Source of the DNA: Deltaproteobacteria bacterium
Lineage (GTDB): Bacteria; Myxococcota; Myxococcia; SLRQ01
Length of the DNA stretch: 50,481 bases
Direction of reading: 5' to 3'
Assembly (NCBI GenBank): GCA_029210625.1
Contig: JARGFU010000014.1
Span: forward strand, 144,400 to 194,880
The notes beneath the pieces are model-generated. The model made no database searches and had not been told where the DNA came from. It saw nothing but the letters and a program-made list of their open reading frames with translations. Positions 1,184 through 34,167 of this stretch are shown here, in pieces (positions within the stretch are counted from its first letter, which is position 1; every line of letters starts with the position of its first letter). Both the position numbers and the translations under genes were made by a program.

Positions 1184-1519
1184 TCATCGTCCGACCTCCG
1201 GCCCGGCCTCGAGGCTGCGGCCGGAGCCGTCCGCCTCACCCATGGGCTGAGGGGCCCCGATGGTCAGGCGCAGCTTGCGATCGGCGGAGCCGGCCTCGCC
1301 GCCCCCGCCGACCAGCCGCAGGGAGGTGGGCCGGCGGGTGACCTCGCCGCCGTCGCTCCCGCCGCCATCGCTGCTGCCCCCGTCGGTGCCGCCGCCGTCG
1401 GTGGTCCCACCGTCGTCGACGCTGCCGTCCGGGGTGCCACCCCCGCCACGACAGTCACAGGCCGAGAGACACACCACCGCCAGGAGCAGCGGCAAGAGCC
1501 GACCCCTCTTTCGAATCAT
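1184..1519 (-). CDS. Small lipoprotein with Asp-Gly-Gly linker
   Basis: The 111-residue product starts MIRKRGRLLPLLLAVVC, with a type II signal peptide and a lipobox ending at a Cys near residue 17 or 21 (CLSACDC). After the Cys comes a low-complexity linker of DGG, TDGG and SDGG units to about residue 58, typical of myxobacterial lipoproteins. A short tail follows (RRPTSLRLVGGGGEAGSADRK). No catalytic motif is visible. The ATG at 1519 was chosen because the signal peptide begins there; an AAGGAAA lies about 15 nt upstream and a TAGGTT (-10-like, minus strand 1569-1564) lies 44 nt upstream. It faces the Cys-cluster gene at 1656 and is followed by the repeat protein at 1124. Function unknown. 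Confidence 0.75.
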   Translation of the reverse strand: MIRKRGRLLPLLLAVVCLSACDCRGGGGTPDGSVDDGGTTDGGGTDGGSSDGGGSDGGEVTRRPTSLRLVGGGGEAGSADRKLRLTIGAPQPMGEADGSGRSLEAGPEVGR

Positions 1520-1655
1520 CGAAAGACCCCGTTTCCTTGCGGCCCCACCGCCTGGACCGCGCCAACCTATGAGGCTCGCCGGAGGCCGGCAAGGCCCGCG
1601 GCCCAACGATTTTGCCGGTATCCGTGCCGGTGCCGCCCTGGGATACTCGATCTCG

Positions 1656-2855
1656 TTGAGCACCAAGACCATCCGGGCGCCCGAAGCTCGCTTCACCTGC
1701 GAGGGCGACGGACGGTGCTGCACGCGCTGGAGCGTCCCGGTCTCGGCGGAGGTCGTCGAGCGCCTGCGCGCCCACGACTGGACCGGCGTCGGCGCGGGTG
1801 ACCCCTTCCTGCCCGTTGCGGGCAGCGGCGAGCCCTTCCGCCTGCGCCTGGTGGACGAGCGCTGCTTCTTCCTCGACGCCGAGAACCGCTGCGAGATCCA
1901 GAAGCGGCTGGGCCACGAGGCCAAGCCGGCGGCCTGCAAGGCCTTCCCCCTGCAGCTCACCTCCATCGGCGGCCAGACCCACGCCCGGCTCTCCTTCTAC
2001 TGCCCCACGGTCTGCGCCGATCGGGGCAAGCGCCTCTCGGAGCAGCAGCGCTGGCTGAAGACCGTCGAGCGGAGCGCGGAGGTGCACCCTCGCTGCGCCC
2101 CCCTGCGGCTCAGCCCGGACATCGAGATCGGCCTCCGGGATCAGGGTGAGGTCGATCGCGAGCTGGCGCGGCGCCTCGGAGAGACCGGCGCCTCGATGGC
2201 CGACCGGCTCGCCACCTGCGTCGGCCTGCTGCAGGTCATCCAGAGCCAGCACAGCGAGGGCGGGATCGCCGTCGCGATGGGGCTGAAGCGCGCGAGCGCC
2301 ATGGAGAGCGGGGAGCTGGCGAGGCTCGGACGCGAGGGTGGCGAGGCCCCCCGCGCCGGGCCGGTCCTCTCCCTCTTCCTCGCCTCGGACTGCCTGCCGG
2401 GACCCTGGGCGAAGGCCGGCCACTTCTTCGGGGTGCGCTTCTTCGGCCTCGGTCTCTCGAAGCTGCGCTCCCGGGCCATGGGGGCGAAGGCCTCCCGCGG
2501 GCGCATCGCCGCCGTCACCTTCGCGCCCGGCGAGGAGGGCGACGCGCTCCTCACCCGCTACTTCATCGCCAAGCTCGTGGGGCGCCGGCACCTCGCCGAC
2601 CAGCTCGACCTGCTGCGGGGCTTCAACCTGCTGGTGGTCGCCTACGGGATGATCGTGCTGCTGGCCCGGCTGAAGGCCGCCAGCGAGGGGCAGCCCGGCG
2701 TGCGCCAGAGCGATCTCCTGGCCGCGGTGCAGGCGACGGAGCTCCTCGTGCTGGAGCACACCGCCATCCACCGGACCTCCTCCTTCTCCCACCTGCTGGA
2801 GAAGATCCTGGACGAGCCCACCCTCTGCAGCTCGATGCTGGCCCGGGCGGCCTGA
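1656..2855 (+). CDS. YkgJ/FliB-like cysteine-cluster protein
   Basis: The protein has about 399 residues. The N-terminus carries CEGDGRCCTRW, then CFFLDAENRCEIQKRLG and KPAACKAFPLQL. This Cys pattern is typical of the CxxCxxCC zinc/iron-chelating family (YkgJ, PF03692), which includes the flagellin lysine N-methylase FliB. About 240 helical residues without a recognised motif follow. I chose the TTG at 1656, just before STKTIRAPEARF, because the family region begins there; an in-frame ATG at 1569 would add 29 residues that do not look like this family. The gene is convergent with the kinase gene, with 1 nt between the stops. No flagellin gene is nearby, so the substrate is open. Confidence 0.8.
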   Translation: MSTKTIRAPEARFTCEGDGRCCTRWSVPVSAEVVERLRAHDWTGVGAGDPFLPVAGSGEPFRLRLVDERCFFLDAENRCEIQKRLGHEAKPAACKAFPLQLTSIGGQTHARLSFYCPTVCADRGKRLSEQQRWLKTVERSAEVHPRCAPLRLSPDIEIGLRDQGEVDRELARRLGETGASMADRLATCVGLLQVIQSQHSEGGIAVAMGLKRASAMESGELARLGREGGEAPRAGPVLSLFLASDCLPGPWAKAGHFFGVRFFGLGLSKLRSRAMGAKASRGRIAAVTFAPGEEGDALLTRYFIAKLVGRRHLADQLDLLRGFNLLVVAYGMIVLLARLKAASEGQPGVRQSDLLAAVQATELLVLEHTAIHRTSSFSHLLEKILDEPTLCSSMLARAA

Positions 2856-29244: not shown

Positions 29245-31548
29245 CTACATCCCGTCCCAGAGGCGGATGTCGAGGAGGGCGACCAGCTCGAGGTCGGGCT
29301 TGCCCGGATCGACGTTGCGCATCTCGGAGCCGGCGCCGAAGGAGGTCCAGCGGCTGCGGGCCCGCAGGTCGAAGTTCACTCCGCGGCCCAGCTTCAAGGC
29401 CAGACCGGCGCCGGCGAAGGGGCCGCCGAGGGTGGCGGTGGTGCCGTCCTCCCACCAGTCGGGGTGGTTGCGGTGGCGCAGGGAGGCGCCGAGGCCCGCC
29501 TCGGCGTAGGGGGTGACGGGACCGAGAGGGAGGCGCAGCTCGAGGCCGAGGTGCGCGGGGAGGTCGTAGCCCGAGCGCTGCCCCATCTCGAGGGCGAGGG
29601 AGTCGGCGCCGTAGTAGGCCACGCCGGCCTCGACGGCGAGGAGGGCCCCGAGCTCCTTCTTCCAGGTGCCCGCCACGCCCCACTCGGCCCACTGGATCCC
29701 CCGGGCCTCTTCACCGGCCAGGATGCCGAAGCCCAGGCCGAGGTAGGTGCCCCGGTGCCGGCGGCGCGCCATCGGGCGGGGCCGGTGGGGGGTCGAGACC
29801 ACCGCGGTCTCGCTGTAGCTGGCGCCGAGGTCCTCCGAGACCGCGCCCTGGTACGAGGCCGAGACGCTCCCGCTGGAGGCGTACGCGGCGCTCGCGCCGA
29901 GGTCGTAGTGGGTCGAGCCGGAGGACTCCTCGCGGTAGCCGTAGTCGGCGGCCACCGAGGTGTCGGTCACGAAGATCGATCCGGGCTCGTAGATCGGCTG
30001 GGCCGGGGTCGTGTCCACGAAGACCAGGGGCGGCTCGGAGGGCGGCACGTGGGTGTCCACGTCGACCCAGACGTCCACGTCGGTCTCGGTGGTCACGACG
30101 ACCGGATCCCGGGGGTAGTCGGGGTAGGCCGGATAGGCCGGGGTCGCCGGGTAGGCGGGCTCGGCCGGGTAGGAGGGATAGGAGGGGTAGCTCGGATAGT
30201 CCGGGTAGGCCGGGGTCGCCGGGTGCGCGGGCCAGGCCGGGGTGGCGGGCGTCGCCGGGGTGGCGGGCGTCGCCGGGGTGGCGGGCGTCGCCGGGGTGGC
30301 GGGTGTCGCCGGGGTGGCGGGCGTCGCCGGGGTGGCGGGCGTCGCCGGGCGGCCGGGGGTCACCGGGCGGCCGGGGCCCCAGGGATCGACGGGGTTCCCG
30401 TGGTTGCCGTTGTTGCCATGGTTCCCGTTGTTGCCGTTGTTGCCGTTGTTGCCGCGGTCCGGGCAGTTGGCCCGGCGCCCGTGGAGGAAGCCGAGGCCGC
30501 CGCCCACGCCCGCATGCCGACCGCAGTCGTCGAGGGCGGTCTGATCGTGCCCGACGGCCCGGCCGCGGGGCTGGTTCTCCTGCCGCTCGCGGGCGGCGCG
30601 GGCTTCGCGCTCCACGCGCTCCCGGGCCTCTCGATCGGCTTGCGCCCGCTGCGCCCGATCGAGGGCATCCCGGGCGGCCTGCGCCCGGCGGTCGTTCTCG
30701 GCGCGCTCGCGAGCCTCTCGCTCGGCGCGGGCCTGCTCGGCGCGCGCGTTGCGCTCCCGGGCCTCCCGCTCGGCGCGGGCCTGCTCGGCGCGCGCGCTAC
30801 GGTCCCGGGCGTCCCGCTCGGCCTGCTCCCGGCGTGACCGCTCGGCGGCCTCGCGCATCGACCGATCCCGCGCCTCTCGCTCGGCGCGCTCCCGGGTGGC
30901 TCGCTCGGCGGCCTCGCGCATCGCCCGGTCCCGGGCCTCCTGCTCCTGGCGAGCCCGCGCGGCTCGATCGGCGGCCTCCCGGACCTGCCGGGCCCGCTCG
31001 CGCTCGGCCTGCTCCCGGGCGGCGCGCTCCGCACGATCGCGGGCCTCTCGCTCGGCGCGCTCGCGCGCGGCCCGCTCGGCGGCCTGCTGCGCGGCGCGGT
31101 TGCGGGCCTCCTGCTCGGCGCGGGCGCGGGCCTGGGCCTCGGCCTGCTGGCGGGCGGCGCGCTCGGCGGACTGCCTCGCCGCCTGCTCCTGGCGCTGGCG
31201 CTCCGCTCGGCTGCGAGCCTCCTGCTCGGCGCGAGCGCGAGCCTCCCGCTCGGCGCGATCGCGGGCGGCCTGGGCGGAGGCCTCGCGGGCCGCGCGGGCC
31301 CGGGCCTCCTGCTCGGCGCGGGCGCGGGCCTGAGCCTCGGCCTGGGCGCGGGCCTGGGCGACCGCCTGCTCGCGCCGGACCGCCTCGGCCTTCGCCCGCT
31401 CCTTCTTCTCCTTCGCCTCTCGCTCTTCCCGGGTCTCGTCGCGGTCCGCCGCCCGGGCGGGCCTGACACCGCGGCCCTGGGCGAGGGCGGGGGAAGCGAG
31501 GGAGAGGGCGAGGGAGGCGAGCAGCAGGGGGAAGAGCTTCGTACGCAT
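29245..31548 (-). CDS. Envelope protein: long charged helix, PAT/Tyr-Pro repeats and C-terminal beta-barrel
   Basis: The 767-residue protein has four parts. A signal peptide ends near ASPALAQ. About 280 residues of RAEREARERA-type sequence, made almost only of Arg, Ala, Glu and Gln, form a single helix or coiled coil. An Asn-Gly run (about 365-385) and a PAT/ATP repeat pass into Tyr-Pro repeats (PDYPSYPSYPS) to about residue 480. The last 170 residues (TYLGLGFGILAGEE ... LVALLDIRLWDGM) show alternating hydrophobic strands and look like an 8-stranded outer-membrane barrel. GAAGGAAA lies before the ATG. The arrangement suggests a tether spanning the periplasm or reaching outside. No family is recognised as a whole. 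Confidence 0.8.
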   Translation of the reverse strand: MRTKLFPLLLASLALSLASPALAQGRGVRPARAADRDETREEREAKEKKERAKAEAVRREQAVAQARAQAEAQARARAEQEARARAAREASAQAARDRAEREARARAEQEARSRAERQRQEQAARQSAERAARQQAEAQARARAEQEARNRAAQQAAERAARERAEREARDRAERAAREQAERERARQVREAADRAARARQEQEARDRAMREAAERATRERAEREARDRSMREAAERSRREQAERDARDRSARAEQARAEREARERNARAEQARAEREARERAENDRRAQAARDALDRAQRAQADREARERVEREARAARERQENQPRGRAVGHDQTALDDCGRHAGVGGGLGFLHGRRANCPDRGNNGNNGNNGNHGNNGNHGNPVDPWGPGRPVTPGRPATPATPATPATPATPATPATPATPATPATPATPATPAWPAHPATPAYPDYPSYPSYPSYPAEPAYPATPAYPAYPDYPRDPVVVTTETDVDVWVDVDTHVPPSEPPLVFVDTTPAQPIYEPGSIFVTDTSVAADYGYREESSGSTHYDLGASAAYASSGSVSASYQGAVSEDLGASYSETAVVSTPHRPRPMARRRHRGTYLGLGFGILAGEEARGIQWAEWGVAGTWKKELGALLAVEAGVAYYGADSLALEMGQRSGYDLPAHLGLELRLPLGPVTPYAEAGLGASLRHRNHPDWWEDGTTATLGGPFAGAGLALKLGRGVNFDLRARSRWTSFGAGSEMRNVDPGKPDLELVALLDIRLWDGM
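30239..30346 (-). repeat. 18-bp minisatellite, six units (encodes PAT repeats)
   Basis: Six tandem copies of ggggtggcgggcgtcgcc lie on the plus strand, with one C-to-T change in copy four. The first unit is two bases degenerate at its left edge. They encode the Ala-Thr-Pro repeats of the barrel protein. A second short repeat (ccgttgttg units, about 30396-30452) encodes the Asn-Gly run. Near identity suggests copy number changes by slippage. Confidence 0.85.
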
Positions 31549-31714
31549 GGGGTTTCCTTCTTTCGGCCCGGTCTGACGCACGCCGCCATGGATGCTTCAA
31601 ATCCGGCGCGGCTCTCCCCTGCGAAAAACCGTTGGACAGGGCTCCCGGCCAATCCCAACTTCTTCTGTGCCGCCGAGGGGGCGGTGCAAGTCATTGAAAT
31701 CAGGGGAGGGACCC

Positions 31715-32599
31715 ATGTCACCACGCAGCACGATCCAGCTTCTCGCTTCCGTCCTCATCACCACCACGGCCTGCGGCGGACCCGAGGAAGTCGTCCCGCT
31801 CACCGACCCCCTCCACGAGTGCCAGAGCTACGCGCCCAGCACCGTCTCCCGCGCCGTCCCCGGGCGCTACCTCGACAGCAACGACGAGCAGCAGGTGATC
31901 CTCACCGCACCGGAAGACCTCGGCGGAGGCTTCATCGAGCTGGTGCTCACCACCGAGAGCCCCCCCCTGAGCCCGGGCTTCATCGTCCGGGCCGAGGGGG
32001 ACACCGCCGGCGCGATCATCGCCGCCAACGCGGTGGGCACCGCCGACCCGACCACCATGCGGGGCGGCTTCTCGGCGGCGCCCGGTCAGCGCTACGTCGT
32101 GGTCATCACCCAGGGCCTCGGCGCGCCGGCCGGCGAGTACCCGGTGAAGTTCAACCTCGACTACACCTTCACCGGCACCATGGACTGCTACGAGGGCAAC
32201 GACAGCCCGGAGACCGCCAAGGTCGTCCCCGTGGCCACCACCATCCAGGCCCACGCCATGGCGGGCTACACGGCCAACCGCCTCACTGCGACCCCCTACG
32301 ACGACTGGTACCGCTTCACCCTCAACCGGGGCGCCAAGCTCGAGGCCGCGCTGGTCGCGGCGCCGGGCGGTCACCGGATGCGGATCCGCTTCTGGGGCGA
32401 GGACGGCGTCACCCAGCTCGCCGCCGAGGGCGGCACCCGCGGAGGCGAGATCTTCACCGTGGGCAACACCTTCGGGCTCGGCACCTTCCTCATGAGCGTG
32501 GAGGTGGCCGATCCCGAGCCGGCCGACTGGGAGGGCGACGGCGACGCGCCCACCTTCTGGTCGATGCCCTACACGGTCGAGCTGCGCGAGGTGCTCTAG
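31715..32599 (+). CDS. Lipoprotein with two PPC-like domains
   Basis: The 294-residue product starts MSPRSTIQLLASVLI with a lipobox Cys in TTTACGG. Two beta-sandwich halves follow. The second has DCYEGNDSPETAKVV, then DDWYRFTLNRGAKLEA, the signature order of bacterial pre-peptidase C-terminal (PPC) domains; the first is similar but weaker. GGGGAGGG is 3-10 nt before the ATG. No catalytic domain is present, so it may bind partners at the outer membrane. It is convergent with the caspase gene; the two stops share CTAG at 32596-32599. Confidence 0.8.
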   Translation: MSPRSTIQLLASVLITTTACGGPEEVVPLTDPLHECQSYAPSTVSRAVPGRYLDSNDEQQVILTAPEDLGGGFIELVLTTESPPLSPGFIVRAEGDTAGAIIAANAVGTADPTTMRGGFSAAPGQRYVVVITQGLGAPAGEYPVKFNLDYTFTGTMDCYEGNDSPETAKVVPVATTIQAHAMAGYTANRLTATPYDDWYRFTLNRGAKLEAALVAAPGGHRMRIRFWGEDGVTQLAAEGGTRGGEIFTVGNTFGLGTFLMSVEVADPEPADWEGDGDAPTFWSMPYTVELREVL

Positions 32600-34167
32600 C
32601 CCCTGCGGCGGATGCGGGCCTCGCCGACCCACTCGTCCCACTCGGTGCCGTAGCCGTCGTAGCGGATGAGGTAGCGCTCCCCGGTCCGGTCGAGGATCGA
32701 GGCCGGCCACCACTGGCCCCGCCACTCGACCTGCACCGGCTCGCCGACCGCCGCCGGCTCCTTCCCGGCCTTCACCCGCCGCAGACGCTCCGGCGGGATC
32801 CACTCGTCCCAGCTGCTGTCGTACCCGACGTAGTGGATGCGCAGCTGCTTGCCCTTCTCCTCGAGGATGAGGGCGGGCCACCAGCTCCCGCCCCACTCCA
32901 CCTCCACCAGCGCCGGTCCGGGAGCGGCCTCTCCGGGCGGCGGCCGCAGGCCGGCGATGCGGTCGCTCAGGATCCACTCGTCCCAGGACGCGTCCCAGCC
33001 CGGGTAGGTGATCCGGTGGAAGTCGCCCTCCACCGCCCTCACCTCGGCGTCCCAGAGCTCGCCGCCCCAGAAGACCCGGAGCTTCGCGCCGACGGGGTGG
33101 CGCTCGTAGGCGATGGCCTCGAGCTCCGCGTTCTTCACCCGCCGGTCCTCGAAGGCGCTGTAGTCGAAGAAGCGCACCAGGCTCTCGACGGCGCCGGGCT
33201 CGCGCACCCGCACGACCCGGTGGCCCGCGCCCACCGGCGCCCGCAGGTAGGCGCCCGCCGGGAAGGGGCCGACGGCCGCGCCCGGGCCCTCCCCGGCGTG
33301 GGCCAGCGGCGCGCGGCCCGGGAGGCCGTACGAGGCGAAGCCGTGGCGCTGCCCCTCGCGGTGCTTCATCTCGGCGGCGACGGACGCGCCCAGCTCGTCC
33401 AGCTGCAGGAGGCCATCCCGGTCGGCGTCGCCGAGGGCGTCTCCCCGCAGGCCGTCGATCACCGCCTGGGTGAAGGTCCAGTTGCTGGTGGAGAGGTTGC
33501 TGGCCTCGGCCGAGGTGAGCGCCGCGGCCTGCACCTGCTTCTCCCGCGCCAGCGCCGCCGCCACCGGGGCGAGGGCCCCGGAGTGGCAGCAGTCGGCCAT
33601 GAGCACGACCCGCTCTCCCGCGAAAGCCTCCCGCAGGCTCGACTCGATCGCGTCCACGCCGATGGCGGTGCCCGCGAGGTCGGCGCTCTTCGAGTCGTGC
33701 GCCAGGAAGTGCGTCGCGCCGGCCTCGTCCCGCGCGCCGTGACCGGCGTAGTAGAAGAAGAAGGTCGAGCCCGCCGGGGCCGCGCGGGCCACCCGCCCGA
33801 TCGCCGCCAGCACCGACTCCCTCGTCACCGCCTCGTCGAGGAGCAGCTCGAGGTTCGAGGCCGGCACGCCGCGGGCGAGGAGCAGCTCGTGGAGCTCCCG
33901 GTCCTTGCGCTCCTTCGCCGGCCAGCCCGCCACGCCCGGCTCGGAGAAGACCAGCACGCCGGCGATCACCCCGTAGGTCCGGGGCCCCGCGAGGAGCGCG
34001 CCCTCCGGGACCTGCAGCGCGGCGCCGGCGGGCTCCTCGCCCGCCCCGGCGTCGCCCGCCCCGGCGTCGACCGGCGGCGGCGGCGTCTTCGCTCCCCCGC
34101 AGCGCTCGCAGGAGAGCGGACCGAGGAGCAGGAACGACGCGAGGACGAGCGGGGAGAGGCGGCGCAT
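32596..34167 (-). CDS. Caspase-fold (C14) lipoprotein with EF-hand and three Tudor-knot-like repeats
   Basis: The 523-residue protein has a lipobox Cys20 (LLGPLSC). The caspase-like domain (about 62-285) has the dyad His143 (YYAGHG) and Cys194 (ADCCHSG). Inside it, residues 247-258 (DADRDGLLQLDE) form a perfect EF-hand loop with Asp at 1, 3, 5, Gly at 6 and Glu at 12. Three repeats of about 50 residues follow at 358-408, 419-466 and 475-521. Each has VxWxGxWW then YxGYDxSWDEW, the signature of eukaryote-type Tudor-knot/chromo-barrel domains. The enzyme should be a calcium-controlled Arg/Lys-specific protease outside the cytosol. The ATG at 34167 has no Shine-Dalgarno; TAGACT ends 8 nt upstream. 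Confidence 0.9.
   Translation of the reverse strand: MRRLSPLVLASFLLLGPLSCERCGGAKTPPPPVDAGAGDAGAGEEPAGAALQVPEGALLAGPRTYGVIAGVLVFSEPGVAGWPAKERKDRELHELLLARGVPASNLELLLDEAVTRESVLAAIGRVARAAPAGSTFFFYYAGHGARDEAGATHFLAHDSKSADLAGTAIGVDAIESSLREAFAGERVVLMADCCHSGALAPVAAALAREKQVQAAALTSAEASNLSTSNWTFTQAVIDGLRGDALGDADRDGLLQLDELGASVAAEMKHREGQRHGFASYGLPGRAPLAHAGEGPGAAVGPFPAGAYLRAPVGAGHRVVRVREPGAVESLVRFFDYSAFEDRRVKNAELEAIAYERHPVGAKLRVFWGGELWDAEVRAVEGDFHRITYPGWDASWDEWILSDRIAGLRPPPGEAAPGPALVEVEWGGSWWPALILEEKGKQLRIHYVGYDSSWDEWIPPERLRRVKAGKEPAAVGEPVQVEWRGQWWPASILDRTGERYLIRYDGYGTEWDEWVGEARIRRRG

Follow-up and report, generated by a model that had tools for sequence, protein, structure and literature searches.

Bacterial chromo-like domains are consistently found in secreted proteins, in which the aromatic cage is kept, and caspases are among their commonest partners (Kaur, Iyer, Subramanian and Aravind 2018, PMC5906684). 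According to Kaur et al., who reported linkage to caspases in planctomycetes, cyanobacteria, bacteroidetes and chloroflexi, these domains probably bind murein or matrix peptides through methylated lysine-like groups, have a tethering or targeting role, and gave rise to the eukaryotic chromatin readers (PMC5906684). Their location outside the cytosol, which the original prediction regarded as odd, is therefore usual for bacteria. On the protease side, orthocaspases, the prokaryotic p20-only members of C14, cleave after basic residues (PMC6426788). A literature search, which covered few subscription journals, found no later work on secreted caspase-chromo fusions, and neither a characterised fusion nor biochemical data on any member; searches on agenet domains in lipoproteins and on bacterial caspases in Myxococcus found nothing.

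The window, a stretch of 50,481 nucleotides from a member of the Myxococcota, encodes a protein of 523 residues that combines a caspase-like domain with a tail of chromo barrels (Table 1). This architecture was already published in 2018 with homologues of the same composition, an outcome that the original prediction had named as refuting it, and the window protein is one more member. We are inclined, by a modest measure, to regard it as an exported cysteine protease of orthocaspase type, with the chromo barrels of the tail serving to tether or target it. The leader would export the protein from the cytosol, possibly attached to lipid, and the barrels would recognise envelope or matrix peptides whose side chains are methylated or otherwise cationic. 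The bound barrels would keep the protease in place, where it would cut after Lys/Arg. This reading is supported by domain matches above their cut-offs, by the conserved dyad and pocket acids, by the leaders of the relatives, and by an AlphaFold2 model of the second barrel (R2) that exhibits a mean pLDDT of 90.5 and matches MRG2 bound to H3K4me3/H3K36me3. Against it stand the lack of conserved neighbour genes pointing to a substrate, the loss of a cage position in 12 of 51 barrels, and the low confidence of the full-length model at residues 217-307.

Table 1. Features of the caspase-chromo-barrel gene, with positions in the window
Feature	Residues	Position	Strand	Basis
Whole gene, probably secreted caspase-chromo-barrel protein		32596..34167	-	21 homologous fusions
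Predicted signal peptide, MRRLSPLVLASFLLLGPLS	1-19	34111..34167	-	n-region and hydrophobic stretch, by eye; Sec-type leaders at the same place in relatives
Candidate non-canonical lipidation site (P-L-S-C)	Cys20	34108..34110	-	Cys positions; lipobox rule of PMC3222651
Pro/Ala/Gly-rich linker	21-57	33997..34107	-	sequence; relatives without linker
Caspase-like C14 domain	~64-285	33313..33978	-	PF00656, NF047832 (below cut-off), PDB matches, model
Catalytic His (YYAGHG)	His143	33739..33741	-	21/22 fusion proteins
Catalytic Cys (DCCHSG)	Cys194	33586..33588	-	22/22 fusion proteins; aligns with metacaspase-4 DSCHSG
EF-hand-type loop, DADRDGLLQLDE	247-258	33394..33429	-	exact motif; complete in 19/22 family members
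Probable degenerate barrel R0, cage not conserved	~305-352	33112..33255	-	AF2 strands; hhalign 82%
Chromo barrel R1, cage W372, Y388, W391, W395	359-408	32944..33093	-	Pfam, alignment
Chromo barrel R2, cage W430, Y446, Y449, W453	416-466	32770..32922	-	AF2, Foldseek
Chromo barrel R3, cage W487, Y503, Y506, W510	472-522	32602..32754	-	PF11717, best stretch 474-520

Barrel tail and candidate ligands

The tail matches the Tudor-knot family (PF11717) with 42.9 bits against a cut-off of 20.8, in three stretches that correspond to the three C-terminal chromo-barrel/Tudor-knot repeats announced in the original prediction; Agenet and MBT matches in Pfam overlap the same region. In a phmmer search of the PDB, the tail retrieved the chromodomains of MRG701, Eaf3 and MRG15. 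The proposed check by structure prediction and fold search agreed with this assignment. The R2 model, built from an alignment of R2, its two sister repeats and two repeats of L004, a homologue from a Spirochaetota MAG, is a five-strand barrel for which Foldseek listed MRG701, PHF20L1, MRG2 with H3K36me3 and H3K4me3, and MRG15 among its first matches. The TM-score was 0.83-0.84 against MRG701 and MRG2, and the E-values were modest (best 3.6e-3), as expected at 54 residues.

In the full-length model (pTM 0.55, pLDDT 75.7), four units resemble barrels. A protein with four agenet domains is the top PDB match of this model, followed by MBT proteins and by MALT1 and metacaspase-9, which the caspase part resembles. 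The additional unit, R0, whose strands lie at model residues 250-288, is probably a fourth, degenerate barrel that the original prediction did not mention. R0 alone gave no score with the barrel profile; the corresponding region of L048, a relative from the same phylum, scored better, and one profile-profile comparison supported R0 (Table 1). At the other end of the tail, R3 is missing from the nearest relatives in the alignment.

The four cage positions were set by alignment with MRG-type domains and from the cage of MRG15, and all four are aromatic in R1, R2 and R3. A full aromatic cage is present in 39 of the 51 domains sampled, and the position equivalent to W453 is the one lost in the others. 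An aromatic cage alone is no proof of methyl-lysine binding. Nevertheless, as the cages are intact, the barrels would plausibly bind protein rather than histone or RNA. Binding of extracellular nucleic acid or glycan in place of peptide, with the barrels as an anchor only, could be argued from the description of the Tudor-knot Pfam family by RNA binding and from Kaur et al., who leave room for contacts with nucleic acid of the matrix as well (PMC5906684). We consider this rather unlikely, as R1-R3 keep the complete cage of methyl-lysine readers, a group to which several of the top structural matches belong.

EF-hand-type loop and caspase domain

The loop at residues 247-258 is as perfect an EF-hand loop as originally described. 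It fits all positions of the strict motif D-x-[DN]-x-[DN]-G-x-[ILV]-x-x-x-E, which arises in 0.02% of shuffled copies of the window protein. Among the 22 fusion proteins, window included, the first Asp of the loop is invariant and 19 members exhibit a complete motif when Asp, Asn or Ser is accepted at the third position; in three members, the motif is broken at the Gly or at the last Glu. The loop also occurs in proteins of other architectures. A narrow script was run on 36 C14 proteins that have no Tudor domain, and 8 of them had the strict loop downstream of their catalytic Cys; this is not an unbiased rate, since 12 of the 28 loop-less proteins are close GSU0716-type paralogues from the window's own class. 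The loop was also recognised by eye in the spirochaete protein L062 (DSNGDGIVSFME) and in L001, another caspase encoded in the window's genome (727-2397, minus strand; DANGDGAVSATE), which exhibits a lipobox-like LLSC and no Tudor domain. As bacterial C14 proteins repeatedly carry the loop, whether or not they have Tudor domains, it may be structural, and if it binds Ca2+, stabilisation of the fold outside the cytosol is more likely than an activity switch.

The full-length model predicts a helix on each side of the loop, within a stretch of low confidence (model residues ~160-250, i.e. protein residues 217-307). EF-hands are usually paired, and this loop is single. A calcium-gated extracellular protease, in which Ca2+ at residues 247-258 turns the activity on, is consistent with this predicted helix-loop-helix and with an exact loop whose completeness in 19 of the 22 fusion proteins suggests that it is probably under selection. 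It is nonetheless unlikely, given the unpaired loop, its presence in bacterial caspases of other architectures and its breakage in three family members. Moreover, the known calcium sites of metacaspases lie elsewhere, in p20 and in the 280-loop of p10, and the orthocaspases tested so far are calcium-independent (PMC5756287), so the metacaspase-like calcium control of the original prediction is not supported. EF-hand motifs have been noted previously in orthocaspases, in archaeal proteins (PMC6426788). An even bolder reading, to which we give little credence, is that of an extracellular reader-protease, in which three methyl-lysine-reading barrels recognise methylated proteins of the surface or matrix and bring to them a protease that is Lys/Arg-specific and depends on calcium. 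If it were true, extracellular lysine methylation would decide which proteins get cut.

The caspase fold of the window protein, as originally predicted, is borne out by Peptidase_C14 (PF00656), with 26.9 bits against a cut-off of 21.4, the match spanning only positions 43-140 of the 233 of the Pfam model. An identity as an EACC1-associated caspase was rejected, because NF047832 reached 87.9 bits, below its cut-off of 140. In the PDB, phmmer matched the N-terminal half to GSU0716 and plant metacaspases. The His/Cys dyad is intact (Table 1), and two acidic residues accompany it: Asp192, kept in 22/22 fusion proteins, which aligns with the Asp of metacaspase DSCHSG, and Asp89, kept in 21/22, which matches Asp95 of TbMC2 by motif only. 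Both would occupy positions at which metacaspases hold the basic P1 residue. By analogy with orthocaspases, the window caspase would probably cleave after Arg/Lys.

A pseudoprotease, in which the caspase fold serves merely as a scaffold, has precedents in the pseudo-orthocaspases (PMC6426788) and a possible parallel in the fusion homologue L052 from the Spirochaetota set (1492-2418, minus strand), which lacks the catalytic His region and is truncated, frameshifted or degenerate. This reading is very improbable for the window protein, as almost every fusion member retains the dyad and the pocket acids unchanged, and L052, which lacks the whole N-terminal part, may simply be broken.

Leader, gene and family

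Secretion of the caspase-chromo-barrel protein is likely, judging from the leader recognised by eye and from the relatives with a readable N-terminus, which exhibit Sec-type leaders; in L052, the leader region is missing. The lipid anchor of the original prediction is more uncertain. The lipobox quoted for Myxococcus is L-[A/S/T]-[G/A]-C (PMC3222651), and the residues ahead of Cys20 are P(-3), L(-2) and S(-1), a misfit that makes lipidation of this Cys doubtful. The relatives with a readable N-terminus also lack a canonical lipobox, with L-P-A-C in L086. Should Cys20 be lipidated, Ala26 would occupy position +7, at which FibA needs an Ala in order to reach the extracellular matrix (PMC3222651); this is weak support, as Ala is abundant in the protein.

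The open reading frame is a real gene. An in-frame TGA lies three codons upstream of its ATG, which is therefore the earliest possible ATG/GTG/TTG start, and its stop codon overlaps that of a convergent plus-strand gene in the common CTAG at 32596-32599. A spurious frame in GC-rich DNA, which overlapping frames of 920 and 419 aa might suggest, is practically refuted by 21 homologous fusions from three phyla with conserved catalytic residues. The convergent neighbour (31592-32599, plus strand) encodes at most 335 aa, probably a secreted protein, with only a sub-threshold GEVED match. Further along, a 778-aa protein (29245-31581, minus strand) contains a long Ala/Arg/Glu-rich stretch and Pro-Ala-Thr repeats, and its C-terminal region scores 27.2 bits with a model of outer-membrane beta-barrels, just under the cut-off of 28.7.

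The search for C14 plus Tudor-knot architectures recommended in the original prediction yielded these 21 further fusions, 18 in Planctomycetota, two in the Spirochaetota set (L004 and L052) and one in the window's own phylum (L048). Of 18 aligned members, 17 had a Pfam match to Tudor-knot and 16 one to Peptidase_C14. In the own phylum (195 genomes), Tudor-knot matches occur in four genomes, two of them as caspase fusions, window included. Three other phyla were sampled partially (149, 246 and 198 genomes). In the Bacteroidota sample (198 genomes), the matches covered the caspase part only and none extended into the barrels, so this sample did not recover the fusions published for Bacteroidetes. 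In the tree, the window protein groups with L048 and L004 with weak support (85/36), which does not decide between vertical descent and transfer.

Nothing widely recurrent was found beside the gene in 15 regions, L004 and the window. A defence system was rejected, as PADLOC returned only a generic caspase match and no partner genes are conserved, and so was a mobile element, as phages gave no match and plasmids a single Tudor-only match; the scanned viral contigs contained distant caspases only. Tudor-type domains were also encountered in other settings: in L046, from the same class (1495-2649, minus strand), a Tudor-knot domain accompanies a GIDE match (PF12483) in place of a caspase, and L047 (1276-1647, plus strand) encodes 124 aa that consist solely of a leader and a pair of Tudor/agenet barrels.

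Relation to described systems

The Myxococcota and the Spirochaetota extend the caspase linkage beyond the phyla listed by Kaur et al. (PMC5906684). As its catalytic residues and the cages of R1-R3 are intact, the window protein is a reasonable test case for the barrel ligand and for protease activity. Its relatives L048 and L004, with 41% and 37% identity, respectively, have the EF loop and the degenerate barrel region in common with it, whereas they exhibit two good repeats instead of three and no Cys after the leader.

With regard to orthocaspases, the window protein shares the HC dyad and probably also the acidic positions of the pocket; in contrast, it is probably secreted and carries chromo barrels. 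The barrels resemble the MRG-type chromodomains of MRG2, MRG701, MRG15 and Eaf3 in fold and cage residues, but those are eukaryotic nuclear histone readers, whereas the window barrels are bacterial, probably secreted and in tandem with a protease. The proteins of Kaur et al. (PMC5906684) have the same two domains, tandem chromo-like copies, an aromatic cage and secretion, the last being probable here. The window protein differs from their caspase fusions in its phylum, its three good repeats, a possible fourth barrel and a possible lipid anchor.
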